DNA from: Undaria pinnatifida
Lineage: Eukaryota > Sar > Phaeophyceae > Laminariales > Alariaceae
Direction: 5' to 3'
DNA length: 64,000 bases
Assembly (NCBI GenBank): GCA_012845835.1
Contig: JABAKD010000019.1
Coordinates: 13,099,344 to 13,163,343 of the forward strand
Positions 2,430 through 63,082 of this stretch are shown one piece after another; the first letter of the stretch is position 1, and every line of letters begins with the position of its first letter. A program made the translations under genes and the position numbers. The notes beneath the pieces are model-generated. The model made no database searches. It worked only from the letters and a program-made list of their open reading frames with translations, and had not been told where the DNA came from.

Positions 2430-3400
2430 ACGCCTGCAAGTTCAAACCTCCTACTGTGCCTCCCTGAAAAGTAATACCAAATCCGCTCGTCTGTCTCACA
2501 TATCTTAAGATACCCGTTGCTGCCCTCAAGTGCACATACTTGGGAACCGAACAGTATAGCTGCTGCTCTCACTGCATTGGAGATGTCCGGCCGAGTCTGA
2601 GTTGCCAGCCACATCAGTGAGCCTACCAACTCGCGAAATGGCCAGCCCCCCGGTGCTTCATTCTTGTCAAATTTTCCAAGTTTCGTGCCAACGGGGAGCG
2701 GGACACTCTTATGATACTCTACCCCGTATTCGCTCGCCAACTGTTCAGCAAAATTTCTGCTGGGAAATTGTCAACATCCCCTTCTCCTAATCCCTCTCGT
2801 AGAAACACCCGGAATACCAACGTAGCTCTCCAAGATTTTTGACCGGAACCATCTTGTTCAAATCTCTCCCAAATTGAGCACACCTTGTCTTCTCTCCAAC
2901 TGCGAATATGTCATCCACATGCACCACTATGGTTATCACTACTCTCTCGCCTTCCATCAACCGGAAAACGCTTGCGTCTGCCAGACACTGCAAAAATCCC
3001 AAAGTCAACAAACATCTAGTAAGATGGGCATGCCATTGCCTCGATGCCTGCTCTAAGCCATAGAGACTCTTGTTTAGCCTCCCTATCTTCCCCGACAACC
3101 TCCCGCAACCCTGAGGCAAACGCATGAAATTGTTTTCCTCCAGATCAGATTGCATGAAAGCCTGCTCAATGTCAAAATGGCGCAGGTCGAGGTCTAGTTC
3201 ACAGGCCATGGCAGTCAACAAACGAACACTCGAAACAGAAACTGTGGGCGCAAACAATTCCCCAAAATCAACGTTAGCTCTCTGTTCATCCCCCCGTGCT
3301 ACCATTCTTGCCTTGGTTTTAGTTGGCCATCCGTACTCATCTGCCTTCCAATCGAACACCCACATTGCGTTGATGCAACTGTCGACTCGTTGCTAGACGG
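2430..3400 (-). pseudogene. Copia reverse transcriptase region (fossil part)
   Basis: Typical copia RT motifs are readable: KARMVARGDEQ, FDIEQAFMQSDL, NKSLYGLEQASRQW and VVHVDDIFAVG (the YVDD-box equivalent), then LVGSLMWLATQTRPDIS. Part of the broken copia element. Confidence 0.88.
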
Positions 3401-4299
3401 GCTCAAATGTCCCCGCCTCCAGTAATCCGTAGAACTCCCGACCTGAATAGTCCTTCCAAAGATGCGCGTGTTCGGACCGCATGGCCTCCGTATGATTCCT
3501 GGGGACTTTGATGTCCCTCGCGTAAAATTGCGGCAGGTCCGGAGGCTTGTAAGGCGGTCGCTGGTCGTTCAGCGTAGCTTCGATGTCCTCGCGTGTGGCA
3601 AGCATCGCCGCCATAGCCCAAGGTATCCCCCCGGACTTCCCAGCGGATAGCTGCTCTCCGCGGTCCTCCCCGGCGGGCGCAACTTGCTCGCGGCCCTCAC
3701 CACATGAACTCCCACCGCGATCCTCCACGGCGGGCGCCAGCTGCTCGCGGCCCCCACTATATGAGCTCCCACCGCGATCCTCCACGCCGGGCGCCAGCTG
3801 CCCGCGGCGGCCAGCATCAATCGCTCCACACGTATTCAGCATCGGCAGAGGCTCCTTCTTGCCCGCAATGGTCAGAAGCCCAGCGTTGAGACTGAAAGCC
3901 TCACCGGTTTTCACTGGCGACGGGAGAGACGGCTTCTCCAGCGTTACCGAGAAGTGCATCATCGGCGTGTCTGAAAACTGGATCGTCTTCGAGCGGGTAC
4001 GGCCAGACACCCGCTGCGACTCCAAGTACGGCGTCGCTGACGGCTGTGGCGGTGGCGGTCGTGACGGCTGTGCCGGCGGTGGCGGCCGTGACGGCTGTGA
4101 CGGCGGCGGAAGTGACGGCTGTGACAGTAACGGCTGTAACGTTTCCGGCTGTGACGGCAGCGGCAGTGACGGCTGTGATGTTACGGGCTGTGACGGCGGC
4201 GACAGTGACGGTGGCGTGTATGTTATGGTGAACCCCGGCGTCGTTGTCGGCGCGGCGGCGTCCACTGAGCCCACTGAAGCCCCCGCGCCCGCCGGCGGC

Positions 4300-6320
4300 G
4301 GCAACGGCAGGACGGGCGTGCGGGGGACCATCCATACGATGTCGCTGGAATAACACACGCCTCCGGTGGAGCTCTTGAGAACCTTCACGATAGATGAGGA
4401 GTGGTTGTGACCGTTGTTGAGGTAAAAACACTTGATCGCTTGGGCATCGAACGTGGTGCTCCGGTTCACTCGCGTCATGCCTAGATGGAAAAAAGGAATC
4501 ACCTGCAGACCCGGCAGTCGCCCGAAGAAAACCTCGTGCGATGACCGCCATCCGGTGTTCGCCTTGGTCGCGGAGCGATTGAAACAGTCGGAAGCCCACA
4601 GGACAGCCTCGAGCCACAGACGGTTGCCATTTGCGCCGACGAACGGGATTTTGCCGAGGTCAACGTCCGGGAACAGTGGCCCAATCTCGAGACACACCGC
4701 ATGGCCGCCCTTCATAGCACGCCAAATTGCACTCTCGATAACCGCGTTCTGCTGCGGCTTCCCCGGGGCCGTGTACCCGCGGCAAATCCCGGCAGAATCG
4801 CAGTAGTCCACATAGTCGCGGCTGATGAACTTCCCGCCGTTATCAGTGCGAAAGCAGTTTGGCCTCTCCATTCCGTTCATGTCGGCGAGAAACTTCTGGA
4901 CGTACGCGGTAGTCTCAGACTTTCTCCTCATACCGTATGGCCGCATCCACCTCAAAGCGCTGTCCACGAACATGATCAGATACACCGACCCGCCTAGGGA
5001 CGCCTCGTAAGGACCGGCCTAATCGATATGGACGGTCTCCATGGGCCTCCCTGCGCGCGATGTCGTCCTCCGCGGTGTCCCAGCACGTATCCCCTTAGCC
5101 TCCAAGCAGCCACCACACAGCCGCAGCACACCCGTCAGGGTAATCCCATGCTGCTGAGTCGTCTGCCTCAGAAGACGTTCGTGCTGGTGGCCGGAGGAGA
5201 CGTGGAAGTGATTAATATCGATCACCTTCTCGGGCTTCCCTACAGTGAATGGGCGCTTTCCCGGGGCGAGAACAGATGCAGCGGTACCTACGCTACCAGT
5301 GAGGAGAGTATGTTTATCAATCTCTTTTAGGGCTTGCACTGCCGCGGGGTTGAGTGCGGGGGAAAAACAATTTGTGTAATTAGTCTCATCGTGACAATCC
5401 ATGAGCTCAACGTCCGTGAACACGCTCATGTTCGGCGCCTGCATGCCGGGGGTAGGAACAAGAGATCTAATCCCTACCGCTCCTTGCTCTACTCCTGAGG
5501 AGGGCTCTGCAAGCGGTTGAGGTGTGAGCAGCACTGATGGTTCTGCACTTACAGCTGAAGCGGAAGGGGGGAAACATGACTCCGTAGGCACTACACCAGT
5601 AACGTTGGGCGGGAAACTTGAGTCGCTAGGTACTATGTCGCTCACGGCAGGCGGGAAACCTAAATCCGCGGCCATGCCCCCTTCTACCCTACGGTGGGAA
5701 AGGGGTTCAAAGCCAAAACCCGACGGCTCCGCCCCATCTAGACGAAAAAAGGGGCATCCAAAGGGGGAGGGGGGTTGAGAACACGACGGGGGGGAAGGTT
5801 GAGCACCAGAGGACGGGGGGGGGGTTGAACACCAGTAAAAGCAGGCACAGCAGTAAGTCCGGCAGTCGGGGTGGCATGCAAGCTTGATCCGATTTCATCA
5901 CGAAGAAAAGTGAGCTGTCTATCGAACAGGTGTGCGCCCTCCTAATCCAAGATGATGGTTTGCCGTGCTTGGGCCTGGTGTAGAGAGAACAGGTTGAAAC
6001 CCTATTCCCTCCATCACGTGCACCCCCGTGAGCTTCACATCAAAGTCCGTCTTCGAGTGTATTATCAGGTTGAGACTACCCACCCCAATCACTCTCATTG
6101 CCTTACCATCCCCGATCATGACTTTTTGCTTCTCAGGGGGGATCTCGACCCAGTCGTATACATTGCGGGCGTCGCTGGTAATGTGATTCGTGGCTCCGTT
6201 GTCGGACACCCAAAATTCACTACGTGCAGGCCCCTCTGTATCTCTGCCACTAACTCTATCGTGGTTATGACTAGCAAGCGCCAACCCAGCAAATCCTACC
6301 CCATCAAGAATCGACTCCAA
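4300..6320 (-). pseudogene. Copia protease and integrase regions (fossil parts)
   Basis: About 5900-6320 carries the retropepsin-like motif VSDNGATNHIT. About 5000-5250 carries the integrase zinc-binding motif (H-x4-H ... C-x2-C), and about 4600-5000 the catalytic core with FVDSALRW and FRTDNGG. A Pro/Ser-rich linker follows. Part of the broken copia element. Confidence 0.8.
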
Positions 6321-13689: not shown

Positions 13690-14280
13690 CATGACCAACC
13701 CGGTGGTTACTATAAACACCATCCCCGAGAAGAAACGATGGAGAAAGCCTCGTTACCGATAGAAAAACTGCCAATGGTCTATCTGTGACCAACGTGGTGC
13801 TCAATGTTGTAGACATGTAATGGAGTGCTCTCCGTAGGAGGATAGTTTATAGATTCGACGTGAAACCATAAACCACGTAATATTAGATGTCACACTCACG
13901 TCAAGGCCATCATAGATGGGCGATGATGTAGGTGACGATGATGGGACAGGCAGGACGCCCCTCATCTCACTACCCTGCACCACCCTGCACTTTCCGTGCC
14001 CTATCCTGTTATGTTTGTACTTTAGCATTATATTTAGAAAAGTAATGCATAAGGTTTGAGCTGAGCCTAGCCAGCGAGCCATGAGGAAACATCAACCAAA
14101 GACACTGGAACCCATGGGGGGCACGCTTCCCAGCACCAACCAACCACGCATCCCCACTCGGAGTACTGTCACAGACACCACCCGTGAGAAGAAATATAGA
14201 ATAAAGCCTCGTTGTCATTAGAACGACTGTCCAAGAGCTCTATCTATGACCAACCTGGTGTTTACTAAACACCCCACCCT
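13690..14280 (+). repeat. Direct repeat pair
   Basis: About 13690-13800 and 14170-14275 share GAGAAGAAA...AAAGCCTCGTT...CTATCTRTGACCAAC. They are about 480 bases apart and clearly diverged. Confidence 0.5.
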
Positions 14281-14489
14281 CGACAAGGAAGAAAGCGTAA
14301 ACGTCAGGAGGTGATCTGTGATGTCCCGTCCTATCAGCCTCTCTCGCCCATCGGACGCCATCATGCCCGTGGTACATTAAGTAGAGTCTTCGGTAAAAAG
14401 GGCTGCAACTTGCAATAATAAATTGCCACGTAACAACCTTAAAACGGCCAAAAACGACTCAAGACCAAGCCTGCGGTACTAAAAGGCGA

Positions 14490-14640
14490 GATGTTATGAT
14501 GATGTCATGATGATGTTATGATGATGTTATGAGGATATATCCCCATTTTCACTACCGAATTAGAGCCATCATATCATATCATATCATATCACACATACTA
14601 TCATACTATCGTACTATCATACTATCATACTCGCACGAGT
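14490..14640. repeat. Simple repeats: GATGTTATGAT, ATCAT and CATACTAT tracts
   Basis: Three adjacent short-period tracts lie at about 14490-14535, 14570-14592 and 14595-14632. They are followed at once by a family C end motif (CTCGCACGAGTGACC). Confidence 0.8.
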
Positions 14641-14810
14641 GACCAAGCACCTCACGGATATATAGACGTTAGGCGTTATTTTTGGCCCAGAGGAGCTTAC
14701 CATATTCCATGGCGGATCATTGTCGCAAAAATATTTTCCGCACCAAAGATTAAGACCGCAAGAAAAAGGGTCACTCGCGCGAGTGACCCCGAGCCGCTGC
14801 ACAAAAACGC
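14628..14810. mobile_element. Family C element
   Basis: CTCGCACGAGTGACC near 14632 and GGGTCACTCGCGCGAGTGAC near 14769 bracket about 140 bases of non-coding sequence. Confidence 0.5.
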
Positions 14811-15337
14811 CCCAAAACAACATAGTAAACCCCCTACGAAATGAAGCCAAGGTCCCAAGCTGATTTATTTTAAAGGCCACCACTGCAACAGCTGTTTGTA
14901 TGCAGTACCTTCGAACGAAGGGGCTGAAAAGGCTTCATGCAGAGAGCAACGCTATAATAGAAAGCATATTATAGGTAACCGAGACGAAAAAGAGACCCTT
15001 ATACAAGTACAGAACTGACTGAGAGACTCTCATAATAGCGAGGACTGCAAACGCGTCCCTGGCAATCAAGAAAAACGGCGCCGTAGGGGAAACAAATTCT
15101 GTAAAAATTGCATGCGCTTGCGGTACTCTGCAGGGGAGGTGTATGCGCGTACCAACTGACGGTTTTCGCCTTTTTGTCCATCTCGTCATGACATCGGTTC
15201 ATAAAGGATTATGATAAACACATGAATTCCTGGTACCCAACAAACCGGCATCGGCGGCGGAATCGAGCTCCGTGGGAATTTTGTATGTTCTTAGGAGGAT
15301 GAAAATTTTAACAGGCCATCATGTAAAGGCGGAAAAT
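14811..15337. other. No gene seen; flank of the DIRS-type element
   Basis: No exon or recognised repeat. The A1 repeat of the retroelement begins right after. Confidence 0.3.
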
Positions 15338-15640
15338 GAGGAAGGTTGTCGTTGGGGCAACCTGGTGTTTGGGGGTAACGGGTAGAAAGATAGAACAGCA
15401 GAAGAAGGGAAATCTCGGGGTTTCTAAATGTAGGGTGCAGGATGTTGGGTACGGGGTATCATAGAAAGATCGAGAGGTCAGATACCAACAAGCGACTGCA
15501 GAGCGGTGTGAAGCGGGGGGTCGTGGGTGCAGCGAATAGCCAAAAATAAGTAACTAACGGGCGAGGCCCGGCACGAGCTGAAGAGGACCGGGGAAGAAGA
15601 CAAGGGACGTAAGGGAGTCGTCTATTTGGTTTTTTCTTTT
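15338..15640 (+). repeat. Split direct repeat A1 of the DIRS-type element
   Basis: The block starts GAGGAAGGTTGTCGTTGGGG and ends near AGGGAGTCGTCTATTTGG. It matches 21837-22168 along its full length in the same orientation and marks the element's left terminus. Confidence 0.88.
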
Positions 15641-15669
15641 CCTTTTCTGTTTTCTCTTCTCGTTCTGGG

Positions 15670-18100
15670 TTGCTGTGCTGGAGGGTGAGCATTGTCGAGA
15701 GCAGCAGTCGTCGGGAGGAACGAGCAAGGATGGAGGGCCTCACCCCGACCCAACAACAGGGCGAGGACCGGGACAACCTGGTGGGAGGCCCAGGCCCAAC
15801 GCAGTCGGGAGGCGGAGCAACCGGGAGCGTGGAAGAGGGTACCATGCACGGGAATACGCTAGCAACCGTAAGTGCGTCGTCTAGTAGAAGCGTGCAGTTC
15901 CCGGGGGTTGAATCACAGGCTCGTGACGGAGACCACAGACGGTCAGGTAGAAGGAATACTCGCATATCGCCAGGCAGAGAAGGAAGGAGTTCAGTTAGGC
16001 ACCACCGCGAACAAACCAACCACGTCCAACATGTCCCACCCCCGCAACGCCACCAAAATGTTTCCCGAGCGGAATCTCGGGGGCCCCCATCCGCGGGTGG
16101 GAGGAGTTCGTATCAGCAGGAGGCAGGGGCGGGGCGAGGCGGGATTACAGCCAGCTGGTGGTTTTTAACGGGCCACCACAGGCGCCCTGGGAACCGGTAG
16201 GAGTGCCGCACCACCCGCAGCAAGGGTGGACACCGCAGCGGCAGTATGACACGGGTGCACAACAGCAGCCGCAGCAAGGCGAGGGGCCGCAGCAACGAGG
16301 GGCGGTAATGGGGGGGGGGATACAGCAACAACAGCAGCAGCGGGGTTGGCCACCACAGCAGCTGAGCGAGGACGCACCACGGCAACAGCAGCAGCAGGGG
16401 TGGCCAACGCAGCAGCCGCATAGCGGGGTGGCCAACGCAGCAGCCGCATAGCGGAGGCACGCCACAGCAGCCGCAGCAAGGGTGGGGACCAGAACAGCGG
16501 GGGGGGGTATGTTGGGGAGCAGTAGGTGCAGTGAGCCCGCGACAGCAGCAGTCAAACTGGCAGCAGCGGCTACAGCCAAGCAGTCAGCAGCAGCAATTAG
16601 ACAGGAGGGGCTTCGGGGAAGTGAGCGCGTGGGAGTTAGACGGGTCAGGACAGCGACAGCAGCAGTTGGGAGCGCTCTTAGGGCAGTGGGGGGGGGGGGG
16701 GGGGGTTTGAAGCCCGTGGGAGATGAATCTGCCAAGGCTGCAACAGCAACGGTATCAGGAACCGGGCACGGGATGGGGAGATGGGAGCGGCATTTCATTT
16801 AGCAACGGGCTGCGGTGGGGGGTGGGGGAGGGGATGATGAGTTTTTCGTCGGGGGGGCCGGGGGGGGGGAGGGGCAGGGGGGGGGGGGGGGGGGGGAGGG
16901 GGGGGGCGGGAAGGATACTATAAGCCATCCCTGACGGAAGCGTTGTGGCGAAAGGGGAACCGCACGGTGGTAGTCTGGGCGTCTCTACGCGGGAACGGGA
17001 AGGCACCACTGTTCGATTCGGTGGAGGCGATGAGCATGGTCACGGGAGGTTCATCATGGAGGGAGAGGGCGCCCAGCAGGTACCAGGACTGAGCAAGATT
17101 GATGTCCGCAACTTCTCCCAGAGAGACTATTTTGGCTTCGGGGGAGGGACGGCGCAGGTATCCCTGGACCACAGGGTGGAGACCGTGTTTATGTTGTTAA
17201 CACAGCTCATGCGGTACGTGGGGGGCGGGAATAAAGTCTTCGGGCAAGCATCGCTCCGACGGACGGACAAGCTTGTCGAGCGCTTTCGCGCGGTAGCGCA
17301 AGGGGTGAGGACTTTTCACGCGCAGAATACACGGGTGACCCTATCAGAACCATTTAGGGGCAAATTCGTCCAATGTTTCAACAAAGATCTCCAGGAGTGG
17401 ACGGAGGAAGTATCTCGGCAGGCCCACATGCTGAAGCAGGAGGTCGGGACGTTCCCGGGTCCGAGCGACGTATACCCGATGCCGCTACCGCTTTTCATGC
17501 GAACCCATACGTGGGTTACAACGGCACCCATCTACCTGGCGGACGTAGGGTACGCAGAGGAGCCCACGGCAGGGGGGTATAGGAAGAGACGGGGGGGGCG
17601 AGGAGGGGAGGGGGCAATCGAGACCGCGGCGGCGGGAGGGTGGGGGGGGGGGTGGGGGGGAACGAACAAGGAGCGGAGGGGTTTGGGGTGGGGGAGGGGG
17701 GGGAGGAGGAGGAGGAGGAGGAGGGGGAGGGGGAGGAAGGGGGGGGGGGTTGGGGGGGGGGTGGGAGAAGGAGGAAAGAGGGAGGGGGGAGGAGGAGGGG
17801 GGGAAGGGGCATCCGACCATGCCGCGACTACAAAGAACTCAGGGCATGCCTCCACGAGCCAAAGAAGGGGATGACATGCAGATACCGGCCCGAAGGTGGT
17901 TACAAAAACTCGAAGGGTGCGTTTCTGCCGAAGGAGGGGGGCGGGTCGGGAGAGCGGAAGAGGGGGGGAGAGGAGGAAGAGAGGGGTTCGGGGAGGAGAA
18001 AGGGGGAGGGGGGAGGGGGGGGAGGGGAGAGACGGACCGGCGAAGAAATGAGGGCATGGGCTCCGCGGCGCGGCGGGGCCAACCAGGCGAGCGACCGACA
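15670..18100 (+). pseudogene. gag-like region of the DIRS-type element (fossil part)
   Basis: A Gln/Pro/Gly-rich low-complexity region (about 15700-16900, with CAG runs and long G runs) precedes a more ordered segment (about 16950-17550) with LTQLMRYVGGG and FVQCFNKDLQEW. That segment is plausibly the structural protein core. It ends in G/A-rich low complexity. The gag assignment rests on position before RT. Confidence 0.5.
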
Positions 18101-18419
18101 CCAGTTCTGAGGCGACCATGTCGAGGGCAGCAGCGGGAGGTTCGGGTTGGGCACTGGGCCAGAGGGGGGAGCCGACTCCTCCAGGATCGGTGGTTGTGTC
18201 AGATACAGGTGCGATATCCGGTCGGCGCGTAGAAGAGCAGAAGCGTTGGCGGGTTGCACTGGGATTACTGGGGAAGGTGTCTGGGGAGTCAACGAAGGCG
18301 ACAAGCTTAATGCGAGCTTTAGCCACGACCGCAGGGCAGTATTATCGAGGGTTTCCGTGGGGGGGGGGGGGGGGCAGGTAGTGCGGTGGTTGGGGGGGTC
18401 GTTGACGGCGCCCCATATG

Positions 18420-20260
18420 GACCCGGAGCGCGTGCAAGCGTTCTTCGGGGACAGACACCAATTTCCGGGAATAGAAAACTTGAGGCACATAGCGCGCGTA
18501 GGGGTGCCGGTCAATGTGCGACCGGGTGGAAACCTGACGAAGGACCTCACATACGGAAATCATTCAAGCGCACAGAAGTTTCACCTCGCAGTGTGGGAAA
18601 AGGCGGTTGCAGACGTTGCGAGTGGCCGTGCTATTGTTTTCCCGAAGGAACAGGCGGGACAGGTAGAAGGGTTGCGGGTGTCACCGGTCGGGGCAGTGGA
18701 AGAGCGGGAAAAGATAAGAATCATCCATGACATGACTTTTGAGCACAGAGACGGAAGTGGGGGCGGTCGATGAATTCGACGACGGATTCGGATGAGATTC
18801 CGACATGTGCGCTGGCAGGGGTGATGCATGAAGTGGTACTGAGGATTCTCGGGCTGAGGGTTAAGTTTGGGGATCGAGCGCGGATTGTCATTCAAAAAAT
18901 GGATGTCAAGAATGCGTTCCGGCAGATTCCAGTGGACCCTGACGGGGCCAGGGTTTTCGGGTACGTGTTGGGGGAGTTCCTTTTTTTCGAGTTGCGGTTG
19001 CAGTTTGGGTGGAGGGGCAGTCCGGGGTGGTGGAGGATGATTTCGGCTGCGATGCAGCATGCGCAAACGTAATACCACGAGAACTTCCGCGTTGTTCTCG
19101 CCGGCCGGAGACCGCGCGGTGGAGCACGTGACGGTGGCGCAGAAAACAGGGCGTTCAGTAGTCAGTTGGCCGGCAGAGTGTGTCGTGAGAACGGCGAAGG
19201 AGAGGGGGGCAGACGACCCGGCCTTCGTGGCGTCTTGTATGGACGATGCTATATCGGTAGAAGTTCGGTGGGATACGGAGGGGGCGCGGTGTTTGGACTT
19301 GTCACGATCCTTAGCTTTCATCCATGAGCAGGCTATGGGCGAGAGATCCGAGGGGCAGGAGCCACTGTTATCGCGTAAAAAGGTGACGGGCTGGGCTACG
19401 CAACAGGAGGTTTTGGGGTACGATATCGACACAGAGAGTATGACCATTGCCCTGCCGACATGGCAAGTAGACGACTTGTGCGCGCGAGTAGCAGAGTGGA
19501 CGGCGGAGCGGCAGTCGGCAGCGGTGCGGGAGGTTTTAGTGTTAGCCGGGAAGCTGCACCACGCTTCCTTTGTGATCCGGCCCGGACGGTACTTCGTCCG
19601 TAGGCTGCTGCAGCTTTCTAATCTGCATCTTAGTGGGGCGGAGCGAGCCAGGGGGGGGGAGCGTGGGTCAAGTACAGGAAACGGGCAGAAGCGAGGCGGA
19701 TTTTGTGACTGTTGCGCGAATTCATGGCTGATGTGGGGTGGTGGAAATGGTTTTTCGGGAGGAGGGGGGGTACGGGGGGGAGAGGATAACAGCACCGTTC
19801 TTTAGCTTCGTTAATCAGCGGCCGAGTAGGACGTGGTTTTCGGACGCATCCTTGGCAGCAATAGGGGGGTTATGTATGGAAACGGGGGTGTACTGGAGAT
19901 TCGACCTTCCGCAAGAGGTGCAGAAACGAACGGTAAAGGGGGGGCAGGCCGTAGCCGATTTGATTTCCATCAACCTGCTCGAGGTAGTGGCAACGGTGAT
20001 GACGGCGTACGTCACGATCGACATGAAGGGAGAGAGACCGCGGAGAAGAGGGGAAGCAGTTCTGATGAAGGCGGACAATGAAGCAGCGGTGACCTGGGTG
20101 AGGAGGTGCCGAGCGGGAGGGAAGAAGCAAGCAAGGGTGTGGGCGTTGATGAGGATAATGGGAGCTTTGGAAGCAAAGGGAGGGTGGTGTTTTCAGGCAA
20201 GGCATGTGCGGGGGGTGGATAATAGGTTAGCAGACGGTCTGACCAGGTGGAAAAAGGGCC
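18420..20260 (+). pseudogene. Reverse transcriptase and RNase H regions of the DIRS-type element (fossil parts)
   Basis: RT motifs: IIHDMTF, MDVKNAFRQIPVDP, FGWRGSPGWW and a catalytic box reading CMDDA (about 19238-19252). RNase H motifs: WFSDASLAAIGG, MKADNEAAVTWV and HVRGVDNRLADGLTRW (about 19830-20260). The FRQIPV and GSPGWW style is typical of DIRS rather than copia or gypsy RT. Confidence 0.8.
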
Positions 20261-20329
20261 AGATTCTCGAGAAACTGAGTGCAGAATGTCCTCGAATCGC
20301 TTGGCAGGTGCAGGAGTTGGGAACGGGGG

Positions 20330-21340
20330 AGCAGCTCATTTTGTTCGGAAATATTGCGAGAGGGTACGCATTTGGAAGAGGTGCAGCTTCGACTCAAAGG
20401 ACTTACGAGGCGAATTGGAGGATGTGGGTGAGCTGGCGGTCTTTTATAGGAAAGGAGTGTTGGCTTCGGAAAGACATGGGGGAGATGGAGCTGGTACGGA
20501 AATAGGTCGAGTTCATGGGATACTGTTGCGCAGGGAAAGGGAACAAGGAGTCGACCATAGTAGGTAAGTTGGTGGCGATCAATTTCTACCATGAGCAGTT
20601 GTTGGGGCTATCAGTGCTCATGAGTAACCCGTTGATCAGATCTGTCAGGCAAGGTATCAAGAGGGCGCACGTAAGGATGGGTAGTCAACAGAAAGTGATA
20701 AAGCCGTTGACGTGGGGGATGCTGACGGAGATGCAGGAGAGCGTTCAGGCATGGGGGATAGGCCGGAGGGTGTTATGGATTGGTTTGGCGCTAACGTATT
20801 TCTTTATGTTGCGAGCGTCGGAATTATTTGTTAACGGGAAAGGGGTGTTCCAAAAAGTATACTGTTTGAGGAGGGGGGATGTGGCGTTCTTCAAGGAATA
20901 CTAGTAGTTGGTAGGAAGCAGAATACACCGAAGCAAATAAAGTAGAGGTGAGGTTTAAGGGATCGAAGGGGGAACAAGGGAGAAAGGGGGCGATACTGGT
21001 GAGACCAAGGACAGGGCGGGGGAAGGATGGAGAAAGAGGGGCGGTGGGTCTGTTAGTGGAGCTGTTTAGGTTGCACGGTAACGGGGATTTTAAGAAGCGC
21101 CCTTAATGTCATTTAGGGGAAAGGATGGTTGGGAGGTTTGGTCTAGGGGACGGGCAACCCAGTGCTTGAGGAATGGCATAGCTAGCGTAGGGGAGAGGTG
21201 GAGAGAGGAAGAGAGGGGAGTGGGGGCGAGACTGATTCCAAAAGAATTCGCGTTGCATTCGGGGAGAATAGGCGGAGCGACAAGACTGGCCGCGAGAGAG
21301 GTACCGGAGGCCGTAATAAAGAAAGAAGGAAGGTAGTCGT
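20330..21340 (+). pseudogene. Tyrosine-recombinase region of the DIRS-type element (fossil part)
   Basis: After RNase H comes an N-terminal SAM-like segment (GAASTQRTYEANWRMWVSW), then LALTYFFMLRASELF, which carries the first catalytic Arg of tyrosine recombinases. A box LHSGRIGGATRLA of the H-x-x-R type follows. These are the recombinase hallmarks of the DIRS order. Confidence 0.72.
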
Positions 21341-21576
21341 CAGACTCGTTTATGGTGTGCGATAGGGCGAATATGGAGGACCCGGTTTGGGTGTGTCAGA
21401 GGTGTTGGAGCAAAGGGCATGGGAGTTTGAGAGACAACCGGGACAAGGGACTAGATGGGGCGGAATGGGATAAGTCTCACTGCCCGGTAATGTAACGACC
21501 GCTTGGGGAACTGCTATCGGAACCCAAACGGTCAGGACATAACCGGACGGAGGGTGGGGAGAATTGCTGTCTCGGG

Positions 21577-21693
21577 TGGGGAGGCGTCTCACTAGCGGAA
21601 GCCGACCGGTAGGTAGGTCGACCGCGTTTCGTTGTGTGGGTGGGGGAGGCGTAAGCAAGAGAGGAAGGGAGGGAGTGGCCCCTCCTCCCCCTC
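21577..21693 (+). repeat. Split direct repeat B1 of the DIRS-type element
   Basis: GGAGGCGTCTCACTAGCGGA to CTCCTCCCCCTC, matching 23048-23166. It follows directly on the coding parts, as expected for B1. Confidence 0.85.
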
Positions 21694-21836
21694 GTCCCTC
21701 CCGCTATTCTATATAGAGGTACGAGGGGAGGCGTACGCATCCGTGGGGGGAGGGGGCAGGACATCCCTTCCCCCCCCACCACCATTTCGGCTTCTTCAAC
21801 TAATATAAAGCATCCTTCGTGGAAGTAAAATCCAAA

Positions 21837-22168
21837 GAGGAAGGTTGTCGTTAGGGCAACCAGGTGTTTGGGGGTAACGGGTAGAAAGATAGAACAGCAG
21901 AAGAAGGGAAATCTCGGGGTTTTCAAATGTAGGGTGCAGGATGTTGGGTACGAGGTATCATAGAAAGAATGAAGGTTCCGGATAATTGTGAGAAATTAAG
22001 TTCGAGAAGTCAGATACCAACAAGCAACTGTAGAGCGGTGTGAAGCGGGGGATCGTCGGTGCAGCGAATAGCCTAAAATAAGTAGCTAACGCGCGAGGCC
22101 CGGCACGAGCTGAAGAGGACCGGGGCAGAAGACAAGGGACGTAAGGGAGTTGTCAAGTTGGTTTTTTT
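21837..22168 (+). repeat. Split direct repeat A2 of the DIRS-type element
   Basis: Full-length direct match to A1 at the left end, lying about 140 bases after B1. A2 carries about 35 extra bases in the middle that A1 lacks. Confidence 0.88.
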
Positions 22169-22249
22169 CCCGCCCACCCTCCCGCAATAATTTCACGGCG
22201 GATGGGCAAACGGAAGGGAAGAAGACACAGTGGTCGATTAGTGATGGCA

Positions 22250-23040
22250 TAATCCCGATCGCACGGGCCGTTTGAAGCGGAACCATTACATATTAATCGT
22301 GTGGCCTTCGTGGCGGGTTCCCGATCGCACGGGCCGTTTGAAACGGAACCACCCAAAGGCACGCGCAGGTGTTGGTTGATTAGTGATGGCATAATAGGTG
22401 TTGGTCGATTAGTGATGGCATAATAGGTGTTGGTCGATTAGTGATGGCATAATAGGTGTTGGTCGATTAGTGATGGCATAATAGGTGTTGGTCGATTAGT
22501 GATGGCATAATCCCGATCGCACGGGCCGTTAGAAACGGAAATAATCACTCAATAATCCGTTAGCAATCGCTGTCGGTTCCCGAGACGAACGGGCTGTTCA
22601 AAACAGTACGATCCGAAAGCACAGGCACATAGTGGTCGGTCAGTGGTGGCATAATCCCGATACGAGCGGGCCGTTAGAAACGGAAATCACCACATCTACG
22701 ATCTTTTGGCAGTCGAGTTGGGTCCCCGACAGGAGCGGGTCGTTACAAACGGAAAAACCAACCGAAAGCACGCGCAAGGTAGTGGTCGATTAGCGGTGAT
22801 TTTCCCGGGCGCACGGGCCGTTAGAAACGGAATCAACGTATCATTAATCGTTCAGCAACGGTGGGGGGTCCCCGACATGAGCGGGCCGTTAGAAACGGAA
22901 AACCTACACGAAAGCACACACAAGTATTGGTGGGTCGAGTAGGTCCCCGATCGCACGGGCCGTTAGAAACGGAACTACTTGGCTGTTTTAGCAATTTCGG
23001 GGTCCGGAATGAACGGGCCTCCGGTTTGCACACGAAAAAC
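22250..23040 (+). repeat. Array of paired hairpins (CCCG-loop-CGGG then CCGTT-AGA-AACGG)
   Basis: Nine clear units lie near 22254, 22320, 22512, 22580, 22655, 22722, 22803, 22868 and 22943, with a decayed tenth near 23000. Each has two adjacent stems: CCCG, a 6-7 base variable loop, CGGG, then CCGTT, a 3-base loop, AACGG. The unit at 22580 reads CTGTT-CAA-AACAG, a compensatory pair change. Others carry G-U-type pairs. Spacing in the later part is about 65-80 bases. The array lies between A2 and B2 of the DIRS-type element. Confidence 0.85.
22378..22510 (+). repeat. 29-bp tandem repeat inside the hairpin array
   Basis: About five near-identical copies of a 29-base unit containing TTAGTGATGGCATAATAGG. 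It separates hairpin units 2 and 3, and a single unit tail occurs before other hairpins in the array. Confidence 0.88.
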
Positions 23041-23047
23041 CTAAGAA

Positions 23048-23166
23048 GGGGGAGGCGTCTCACTAGCGGAAGCCGACCGGTAGGTAGGTCGACCGCGTTT
23101 CGTTGTGTTGGCGGGGGAGGCGTAAGCAAAAGGGAAAAGGGAGGGAGCGGCTCCTCCTCCCCCTCC
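23048..23166 (+). repeat. Split direct repeat B2 of the DIRS-type element (right end)
   Basis: Direct match to B1 at 21577-21693. The similarity ends near 23166, which I take as the right terminus of the element. Confidence 0.83.
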
Positions 23167-23564
23167 AAAAACGTGGAAAATATAGCGACTCTATTGTTTT
23201 ATGTTTTGAAGTCGGCTATCAGGCATGAGTGTCGAAAGCTGGCGAAGGGTGTATACGACCCGACGCTTACAACATTGTACGGGCCGATTCAGTTGATATA
23301 GCTTTGCCTTGCACTTAACTGTGTCGATTAGATGCATGTGCGCTAAGACATATGTGTCTGCCCGGTGTATGCTTGCGGCGGAGTTGCAGACTCACATGCC
23401 TAAGCACCCAACCCCGCAACGAAGGGCCGGAGCGGGGGGAAAGGAAGGGCTACTCATTTGTTGTTTGCCTCCGGCATTTGACTACTGATCACGAGTCCCT
23501 TTCGAGACGGGACCCAGGCTACGGTAGGGGGGTCCCTTTTGGGGCCTTAAATTTCAGTGGCTAG
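23167..23564. other. No gene seen; right flank of the DIRS-type element
   Basis: No exon or known repeat was recognised. Confidence 0.3.
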
Positions 23565-23760
23565 GGGCCACTCGCGCGAGTAACCCCTTTTTTATTTTGC
23601 GTTCTTACGTTTTCTTCATGTTTTATATTGACGAAATCCATCCGGAATGCAAAGGTAATCTAAGATGCTCCAAAATAACTGCCTAAACCCTCTTCATCAT
23701 CCGTGAGGTACAGAGTCACTCGTGCGAGTGGCTCAAACACACCAGTGAAATCGGGGGTGC
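23565..23760. mobile_element. Family C element
   Basis: GGCCACTCGCGCGAGTAACC near 23569 and GAGTCACTCGTGCGAGTGGC near 23713 mark the two ends of a short non-coding element. Confidence 0.6.
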
Positions 23761-23879
23761 CCCCCCTACCGTAGCCTTGATCACGGATCACCGTTCCTGC
23801 TCCTAATACAGCGGCTTCCAGCATTTGGGGGTGCCTGATAGACGCATGCTATACGGTAGATATAGTACATTCTTCTTAA

Positions 23880-24108
23880 ACGTTTTCTGGCTGACTGACG
23901 GGGCTCCTTAACCCAAATTCGTCGGAAAAAAAAAAAACAATAGGCCCTTTTTTTGCGTGATTCTCGTTGTGTAACTAGGCTATGGGATTTTCCTTCCTGT
24001 TGCAGCAGTTTTTTTTTTTCTCCAGATCGGTTTTTGGGAGAGGTCTTAAGCTCCCGAACTTGAGGAGCCCCAGAAAGAGAGTGTTGCACCTCTATCGTAG
24101 CTCGCGTC
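23880..24108 (+). mobile_element. Family A inverted-repeat element, left end missing
   Basis: CTGACGGGGCTCCTTAACCC, TTCGTCGGAA, CTAGGCTATGGGA and GGGAGAGGTCTTAAGCTCCC are readable, then TTGCACCTCTATCGTAGC and GCGTC at the right end. The left terminal repeat is lost. Confidence 0.75.
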
Positions 24109-24394
24109 GTATACTATAATCAAGATATATTACATAAAACTTCTTGCTTAACTCGTATCCTTCCTGTTCGGCCTTCACTGTGGCCATCATCTACCTTCTG
24201 GGATAGCGAAGGGCGGGAGGAATGTACCGGGGCATCAATTTCGAAAAAAGCTTTAAAAAAAATACTCGAGATGAACATGTTTCACACGATATCAGAACTC
24301 TGTTTTCGTTACTACAACATACATACATACGAAGACCGTAAACCGATGCGAGGGGCGAGAGGTTTGGCGTTCGGGGGTCGACGAGCAATAATTT

Positions 24395-24925
24395 TCCGGG
24401 CGCAACAGACTAAACCCATAGCATGGGACGTGACAGCAATAAAAGGACTACAATAATAGCCATAAATGACTATTCGTCGAAGCCACATCGCGCATCAAAC
24501 ACAAGGTGAGGCATTTTCGCTTCTTCTCCCGATACTCTTCTCATATTTTCGACTCTTCGTATAAACGAAACTGGGAGCGTAAAACAGTGTAGTCTAATTG
24601 CACTGCCGCTGTGTCGATCGTTCCGCAGTGATATAATACACGGACAATACTTTTCCTGACGCAACAGGCTGACCTATAGACTATAACATGATGAGGCATG
24701 ACAGCAGTCGGAAGAGGGCTATTATACTAACGTAAATAACTAGACTACACGTGGAAACCGCACAGCGCATCAAACACAAGTAAGGTGTTTCCGCTGCTGC
24801 TCCCTATACTCTTCTTATATTTTCCACTCTTCCTATTATAGACGGAGCTGTGAGCCGCAAAGAGTATGATTGCACTGCCGCTGTCTGTCGTTACGTAATT
24901 ACAGTGCTACAGTATTGACGGCAAA
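24395..24925 (+). repeat. Tandem duplication of a ~260-bp unit
   Basis: Two diverged copies (about 24395-24655 and 24656-24925) share CGCATCAAACACAAG, ATACTCTTCT.ATATTTTC and TGCACTGCCGCTGT. Purpose unknown. Confidence 0.7.
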
Positions 24926-26150
24926 AACACATGTTAAGATCGATTTACGGCAATTTACAATGCATTCACAGAGGAGGGGGAGGATTTACCCAAGCAAGGA
25001 AGATGATGCTACACAGATGCAGCGGTACACTGTTGTTTGTTGATAAATGTACGCCTCGCCCGGATCAGTTGTCCCGCACGATATACATGGCATAGTTCGT
25101 ATACAGCAGCTGCCCCTACTGTAGATCATACTGCTTTACAGCGAAACATGTTATGTTCCTCTTGCGATGAACAACTAACTGTCCTCGGCGCTCCTCCTTC
25201 TTAAACGATGCGATCACGAGGATGGCAGACTAGAATGTTGTGCGAGGATGACTGACTGCGACGCCGGTTAGCTAAAAATCGGATACCTGCTGCATGCCGT
25301 TCGCCTTTTTGAACGGGTGGCGTTTGGTTCTTGATCTATAGACTATAGTATATAGTGTCTCCAGTAAAGTCCATCTCGCAAGCAGCCCAGGCACACCCAT
25401 CTCGCCCGCACATCTGCATGGTTCGTCAACCCAGCCCTCTGTCAAGACAGCATCAAGCACTACCACTGCGGTCTCCAGTAAAAAAGGCGAGGCATGTGAC
25501 ACGCGCTATTATAACTGTAAGACTGTAACACGGGGCATCAGAGCTACAAGTTAGTTGAAAAAATGTCGCTGACTGACTAGTATATACTACCAGGTAGTAT
25601 ATACAGTAGTAATATATAGCCTCGGTGTTACCGGGGTATTGCGGTTCGTTTCGAACTGCAGCTTGCGCAATTCTGCGTTTTAGTGTCTCGTTGTGTTTGT
25701 GGGTTGTGTTTGTGGTTCGCAAATCGCTTATTATGGGCCAAGTATGTTTTATAATGTCGAGAAAAGGGACATCCCACGCCAGGAGGTGCCCGCAGCAGGA
25801 AGTTTCTGAGCTCATGAACATGAGGAGCTAGCTCAATATCTTACCATGTCATCACCCGAAACATGGCTTGCCATTGGAAGGCATTTTCGCTTGCGCAGCA
25901 ACCTGGCCAACATTTCTATGAGCGATATAGCCCTGTTAATAATGACCAATAACACAAAGATACTCACTCGTAGTGTTTATCATACTGTTCGACAGTATTC
26001 CACACTTTTTCAGGAGCTCAACCGGTCTGAAACGTGAAAAATCCCTGCCTAACGTGGGACGTCTCAATCAAGTACTGCTGCGCTGTAACAGCAAAGAGAG
26101 TGAGATGGTTGGCTTTTTTTGCTTCACCGTCCGGACATGTATGTGCTGCG
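24926..26150. other. No gene seen; fragment of dispersed repeat family D
   Basis: No exon was recognised. About 25760-25930 carries the family D pattern (GAGCTC...ATGAGGAGCT...CTCAATATCT...ACCCGAA), also seen near 55340-55680 and 61600-62060. Confidence 0.35.

Positions 26151-37081: not shown

Positions 37082-63082
<26,001 letters not shown>

Follow-up and report, generated by a model that had tools for sequence, protein, structure and literature searches.

What purpose could a chain of paired hairpins serve between two repeats of a retrotransposon? The question is raised by a stretch of 64 kb from the brown alga Undaria pinnatifida, referred to here as the window, in whose coordinates all positions are given. 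A preliminary description of its letters had claimed nine paired-hairpin units inside a DIRS-type element, with stems kept while loops vary, and had seen in them a hint of selection on RNA.

The element that holds the array is delimited by four split direct repeats, which run in the order A1, B1, A2, B2 of the Ngaro superfamily. Its parts, all on the + strand, are the following.

15335–15635, + strand: A1, left split direct repeat, aligned to A2
15636–21577, + strand: decayed coding region, putatively Gag-like to RT to RNase H to YR, frames broken, from stop-to-stop pieces and motifs
21578–21693, + strand: B1, internal split direct repeat, aligned to B2
21694–21833, + strand: 140 bp separating B1 from A2 as aligned, without a second copy in the window
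21834–22167, + strand: A2, internal split direct repeat, aligned to A1
22168–23048, + strand: A2–B2 spacer, bounded by A2 and B2, most of it taken up by the array
23049–23165, + strand: B2, right split direct repeat, aligned to B1

A1 is 84.7% identical to A2 (21834–22167) over 334 columns, a 33-nt gap included, and the two ungapped blocks reach 96% and 92%; B1 and B2 are 93.2% identical over 117 columns. The alignment of these repeats places the array between A2 and B2, where it had been reported to lie. The likeness to Ngaro elements extends to the A1-ORFs-B1-A2-B2 layout, to the putative order of RT, RNase H, and a 3′ YR, and to the lack of space for a methyltransferase. Two features differ. 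In Ngaro elements B1 is directly followed by A2, whereas here 140 bp part the aligned portions, though either end of this copy may be truncated, and the A2–B2 spacer holds the junction array described below. The extra 140 bp reflect either an end lost by this copy or a failure to rebuild its ends from the internal junction. This segment (21694–21833) contains TATA-like stretches and is without a counterpart beside A1 or B2.

Six motifs were located in the coding region, SCMDDA (19233–19250), FSDAS (19837–19851), DNEAA (20074–20088), DNRLAD (20218–20235), RASEL (20812–20826), and HSGRIGG (21256–21276), which we take to be boxes of RT, RNase H, and YR. A Pfam scan with sets of 10, 7, and 10 window pieces gave a weak RVT_1 match at 18743–19069 (E = 0.04, below gathering) and none for the coding pieces carrying the RNase H and YR boxes; because this match is the sole library support, the RT, RNase H, and YR labels rest on these motifs and the repeat layout. 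The RNase H piece matched two PDB sequences at E-values judged to be chance (0.77 and 3.1), and IMG/VR protein scans returned no relatives of the coding region. In the open piece at 19732–20502, the last RNase H motif is followed directly by the segment that precedes the YR, and 21358–21577 is too short for a methyltransferase domain. The layout thus leaves no room for a methyltransferase domain between RNase H and YR, and the Pfam scan of window pieces found none, a silence that weighs little because RNase H and YR escaped Pfam as well. Since there is no such space in the layout, we prefer the Ngaro type to DIRS1 or PAT, following the type definitions in the relevant sections of PMC4157794 and PMC9210276. 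The PAT or DIRS1-like identity, which calls for a methyltransferase domain in pol, was rejected on the same layout. Judged from its sequence, the host is better called a decayed Ngaro-type retrotransposon than a DIRS1-type one, and this copy is dead. Elsewhere in the window, the minus strand has an open frame of 530 aa (3393–4985), which matches the integrase core PF00665 (E = 6.3e-6, below gathering) and is probably another retroelement.

The array itself comprises nine units on the + strand between 22254 and 22972, each combining a hairpin H1, CCCG-(6–7)-CGGG, with a hairpin H2, CCGTT-(3)-AACGG, as had been claimed. The unit limits given here include the flanking arms discussed below.

22234–22300, + strand: unit 1 (type a), three-way junction; H1 22254–22267, H2 22268–22280; fold z −2.10
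22300–22366, + strand: unit 2 (type b); H1 22320–22333, H2 22334–22346
22367–22511, + strand: 29-bp tandem in five copies, by which the left arm ahead of unit 3 is locally expanded
22492–22558, + strand: unit 3 (type a); H1 22512–22525, H2 22526–22538
22559–22626, + strand: unit 4 (type b); H1 22579–22593, H2 22594–22606 with the two-sided change; free fold a shifted junction
22636–22703, + strand: unit 5 (type a); H1 22656–22670, H2 22671–22683; outer stem GTGGTGG/TCACCAC
22705–22772, + strand: unit 6 (type b); H1 22725–22739, H2 22740–22752
22784–22850, + strand: unit 7 (type a); H1 22804–22817, H2 22818–22830
22851–22918, + strand: unit 8 (type b); H1 22871–22885, H2 22886–22898
22926–22992, + strand: unit 9 (type a); H1 22946–22959, H2 22960–22972; ten contiguous outer pairs
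22998–23039, + strand: possible degenerate tenth unit; covariance model 9.0 bits, E = 0.47, not significant alone

The 4-bp H1 stem CCCG/CGGG is found in all nine units, around a loop of 6 nt in five and 7 nt in four, and the 5-bp H2 stem abuts it with zero bases between. The H2 stem reads CCGTT/AACGG in six units. The two-sided change to CTGTT/AACAG claimed at 22580 was found in the unit whose H1 starts at 22579, and the other departures are G-U compatible, as had also been stated: CCGTT/AGCGG in the unit starting at 22254 and TCGTT/AACGG in that starting at 22725, each a U-G pair. All 81 stem cells pair (81/81, none broken), and the loops differ between units, which bears out the contrast of kept stems and variable loops. 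The H1 starts (22254, 22320, 22512, 22579, 22656, 22725, 22804, 22871, 22946) are spaced 66, 192, 67, 77, 69, 79, 67, and 75 nt apart. Two linker types alternate in these spacings, 39–41 nt in type a and 47–51 nt in type b, and the repeat is therefore a dimer of ~145 bp. The five-copy 29-bp tandem (22367–22511) lengthens the linker that follows unit 2 to 165 nt and the spacing there to 192 nt.

A covariance model built from the nine units scores these same nine at 45.8–57.0 bits, by construction. Its best other match in the 64-kb window, at 10.2 bits, is a minus-strand hairpin inside unit 2, the best match outside the array reaches 9.1 bits, and the model found no further clear unit in the window. 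Right after A2, at 22168–22225, lies a GC-rich hairpin that terminates, as H2 does, in AAACGGAA and may represent a decayed unit ahead of unit 1.

Local folds revealed that the flanks of a unit pair with each other, enclosing both hairpins in a three-way junction, so that the main structure escapes a reading confined to the two small hairpins. We call this outer stem P0. The alignment of units with their flanks by MAFFT, followed by RNAalifold, did not detect P0: its register shifts between units, which blinds an alignment-based approach, and an alignment-free test of arm pairing was therefore used. With arms of 16 nt, the mean energy of a unit’s own pairing is −10.34 kcal/mol versus −5.95 (sd 0.67) for dinucleotide-shuffled arms, a value reached by 0/1000 shuffles; with 20 nt, it is −12.06 versus −8.09 kcal/mol, again with 0/1000. 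Taken singly, six of the nine units pair at p 0.05 or better with 16-nt arms and three of nine with 20-nt arms. Random sets of nine places in the window, drawn with the same geometry and an arm G+C of 0.35–0.60 (the own arms span 0.25–0.62), equalled the own-arm mean in 0/20000 draws. The energy peaks at zero offset, falling to −8.6 and −8.9 at 3 nt and to −6.1 and −5.2 at 6 nt, with a second, weaker shoulder of about −8 at offsets of +15 to +27.

Exchanging arms between units gives a more graded picture. Permuted among all units on the + strand, arms match as well as their own partners with p ~0.003 or less at every length; permuted within type, they do so in 4, 68, 74, 83, and 142 of 2880 permutations at 16, 12, 20, 25, and 30 nt, respectively; units 1 and 3 have an identical left arm, which makes one or more of the top permutations a tie. 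The 16-nt means are −10.3 for own pairs, −6.1 and −8.9 for other pairs within type a and type b, and −5.2 and −5.4 across types. A plain stem scorer yields weaker within-type results, 36 to 514 of 2880 with G-U pairs and 8 to 790 with Watson–Crick pairs only; the outcome of the within-type test varies with arm length and scoring. Letters are exchanged inside P0 as well, as between unit 1 (GTGATGG/CCATTAC) and unit 5 (GTGGTGG/TCACCAC), where an internal A-U becomes G-C. With H1 and H2 enforced, P0 has 9–17 pairs per unit, 102 Watson–Crick and 12 G-U in total, counts that are not independent evidence since they are taken from the fold; 0–8 nt join P0 to H1 and 0–6 nt join H2 to P0. Linkers pair with themselves more weakly than own arms pair, except at units 8/9 (−11.4 vs −9.1 for unit 8 at 16 nt). 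These tests support arms of P0 that match within units and turn each hairpin pair into a three-way junction. By computation, the A2–B2 spacer can thus form a chain of three-way junctions, in which conserved abutting hairpins sit inside a variable outer stem.

Is such a chain more than a by-product of repetition? A functionless tandem array could have grown in the spacer by unequal exchange or RT slippage, with a dyad symmetry owed to founder chance. Tandem repeats are well known in retrotransposons, in the portions of that literature consulted, the five-fold expansion of the 29-bp unit is an instance of amplification without hairpins, and the 884-nt spacer, folded in full, is no more stable than shuffled versions of it (z −0.13 on + and 0.94 on −, 20 shuffles each); H1 and H2 pair probabilities in the full-length fold range from 0.06 to 0.94. 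What a founder effect accounts for poorly is the distribution of change among the units. Among units 1–8, the 27–28-nt core is 82% identical between types, while the linkers are near random at 49% (46.5% for shuffled linkers); unit 9 was left out, since its linker merges with the decayed tenth unit. Among units of like type, identity is 87% and 78% in the core and 63% and 66% in the linkers. Because the aligned blocks of A1/A2 are 96%/92% and B1/B2 93% identical, the units seem to have diverged well before insertion, with the core held back. The outer arms have diverged too and still match within units. We consider a functionless array unlikely. Selection is supported by the sequence of this one copy.

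The H2 change on which the hint of selection on RNA had been founded carries less of this argument than the outer stem, which the preliminary description had not seen. H1 is uninformative on covariation since it is invariant, and 43/500 column shuffles match the H1/H2 pairing score of the real units. In a simple substitution model, four random H2 substitutions leave all pairs standard in 0.3–3.6%, depending on transition bias. The H2 stem change is only suggestive, a hint and not proof of selection on RNA; the support for such selection comes through P0.

The near-fixed H1 and H2 are also DNA palindromes, a pattern expected of protein sites, and the units could be bound as duplex DNA by a dimeric protein (a transcription factor, an insulator, or the YR of the element), in which case RNA would be irrelevant. 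Duplex sites would have no need of a variable, matching outer stem, and of the three variant H2 stems, two carry U-G cells, which break the DNA symmetry. Duplex DNA sites are, in our judgement, distinctly unlikely. An RNA of the + strand can tolerate either of the one-sided changes in H2.

Free folding gives further information on the strand. As 67–68-nt RNAs of the + strand, seven of nine units adopt the junction as their minimum-energy fold; unit 4 forms a shifted junction, and in unit 2 a different form is more stable than the junction by 1.1 kcal/mol. Single-unit z-scores on this strand are all negative, from −0.20 to −2.10. In stretches of 75–76 nt, with 24-nt flanks, the junction is the free minimum in six of nine units; unit 8 forms it at 68 nt, and at 76 nt another form is 0.5 kcal/mol better. 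On the minus strand, RNAs of units 1, 3, and 9 are without the junction, which unit 2 forms there. Measured against mononucleotide shuffles, arm pairing has z of −7.05 and −5.35 on the + strand and −4.41 and −3.60 on the minus strand, where within-type permutations do as well as own arms in 4 of 2880 at 16 nt and in 444, 118, and 341 at 12, 20, and 25 nt. Wobble cells of P0 fail to separate the strands (G-U to A-C 7:7, 19:13, and 28:23). The + strand is thus only weakly favoured.

These minus-strand figures bear on another possibility, that the array cDNA folds as single-stranded DNA into Y-shaped sites for the YR, or into a start for the second strand, in the manner of integron attC. Arrays of attC sites are tandem folded sites with a conserved shape and variable letters in a tyrosine-recombinase context, and the layout and motifs of the present host point to a YR element. 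Junctions are possible on the minus strand, as the z-scores and the 4 of 2880 permutations at 16 nt indicate. The comparison fails in several respects, however. Units 1, 3, and 9 miss the minus-strand junction, although unit 2 forms it there and not on +. The attC core boxes, far from occurring in each unit, are near absent from the spacer, with one GTTRRRY on + (none on −) and one RYYYAAC on − only. Conservation in attC falls on the stem and variation on the tips; here the tips are conserved and the stem varies. Folded single-stranded sites therefore appear very improbable to us, even if the model for DIRS-1, in the sections of PMC5633606 devoted to it, passes through cDNA and circles.

The units were compared with known RNAs and with other collections of sequence. 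Rfam gave no match in the 64 kb at the gathering score and, in a permissive search, nine matches within 14000–25500, no ribozyme among them; just one of the nine, mir-278 on the minus strand (E = 0.96), overlies the array. A tRNA search of the window DNA found none. The hammerhead core was sought as CTGANGA and GAAA, and CTGANGA is absent from both strands of the spacer; the spacer also lacks a strict pol III B box, and a relaxed B-box pattern matches once on +. Few unpaired bases are conserved in the units. These results weigh on the idea of a captured structured RNA, a tandem self-cleaving ribozyme or small non-coding RNA of the sort found in retrozymes and Penelope-like elements, whose hammerhead ribozymes are three-way-junction RNAs of similar size inside retroelements. 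That precedent, attested in those parts of the literature consulted, is its main attraction; the present units differ in having no hammerhead core and no Rfam match, and in the abutment of H1 and H2. A captured RNA is the least probable of the explanations weighed here.

Exact-pattern scans of IMG/VR returned 3 and 16 stretches (two shared), and a scan of GTDB contigs 14, each with a single match and no array. In 17 of these 31 loci (L001–L017), the covariance model found one strong match each, located at the pattern, the best at 32.0 bits and the rest at 12.8 bits or less. Six pattern matches were viewed in context, where L009 and L011 are identical over 500 bases. We judge the single matches in both collections to be chance. 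Because these collections consist of viruses and prokaryotes, the scans say little about eukaryotic relatives.

The reading we tentatively prefer, and regard as possible, is that the array served this Ngaro lineage as a multi-copy cis-acting recognition element within its genomic RNA. The single copy suggests, and does not prove, that the element used its nine units as a repeated RNA handle. The array would then lie in the 3′ non-coding part of the genomic RNA, and its units would have been kept by selection while the element lineage was active. A protein of the element, either the Gag-like product or the RT, may find its binding face in the conserved hairpin pair, which the outer stem would do no more than clamp, and copy number would give avidity. 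The array could mark the RNA of its own element and compact it, ready for particle assembly or for reverse transcription, and perhaps also bring the 3′ B2 end near the B1–A2 region, the proposed template of circle closure. If A1 holds a promoter, the scheme predicts that a short A2-array-B2 transcript, properly ended, would be driven by A2. The terminal repeats of DIRS-1 hold a promoter, according to the passages of PMC5633606 on transcription, and the experimental proof of the mechanism proposed for DIRS-1 is described in the same source as incomplete.

How tyrosine-recombinase retrotransposons choose their own RNA, prime their cDNA, and close their circles is largely open, and the array offers a concrete candidate signal. 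More broadly, it may represent a cis-acting retrotransposon RNA of a new class, a Y-shaped junction chain with a near-fixed double-hairpin head and a varying, covarying clamp, which would serve tyrosine-recombinase retrotransposons as a packaging or template-recognition signal or be an uncharacterised catalytic RNA; we hold this wider proposal to be doubtful. To our knowledge, no such packaging or recognition signal is known for this group of elements.

The statement in the preliminary description that elements of DIRS order are without known arrays is itself questionable. TOC1 of Chlamydomonas reinhardtii, a split-repeat element of the PAT group, was reportedly described by Day and Rochaix in 1991 as carrying 76-bp repeats in an internal tandem array. 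This length is close to the 66–79-bp spacing seen here. In literature on DIRS split repeats, Kangaroo/PAT, Ngaro tandem repeats, and three-way-junction retrotransposons, we recognised no such array in the titles and opening lines of abstracts among the matches listed, and absence from print is not claimed. The words “tandem” and “hairpin” are absent from the main texts of two Ngaro papers, on Cafeteria (PMC8547959) and Xenopus (PMC9210276). The window contains other tandem arrays, at 37718–38138 (43 bp × 9.5) and 44114–44377 (13 bp × 20.3), and a long TTG trinucleotide array of ~100 copies lies within an open frame at 53379–53680.
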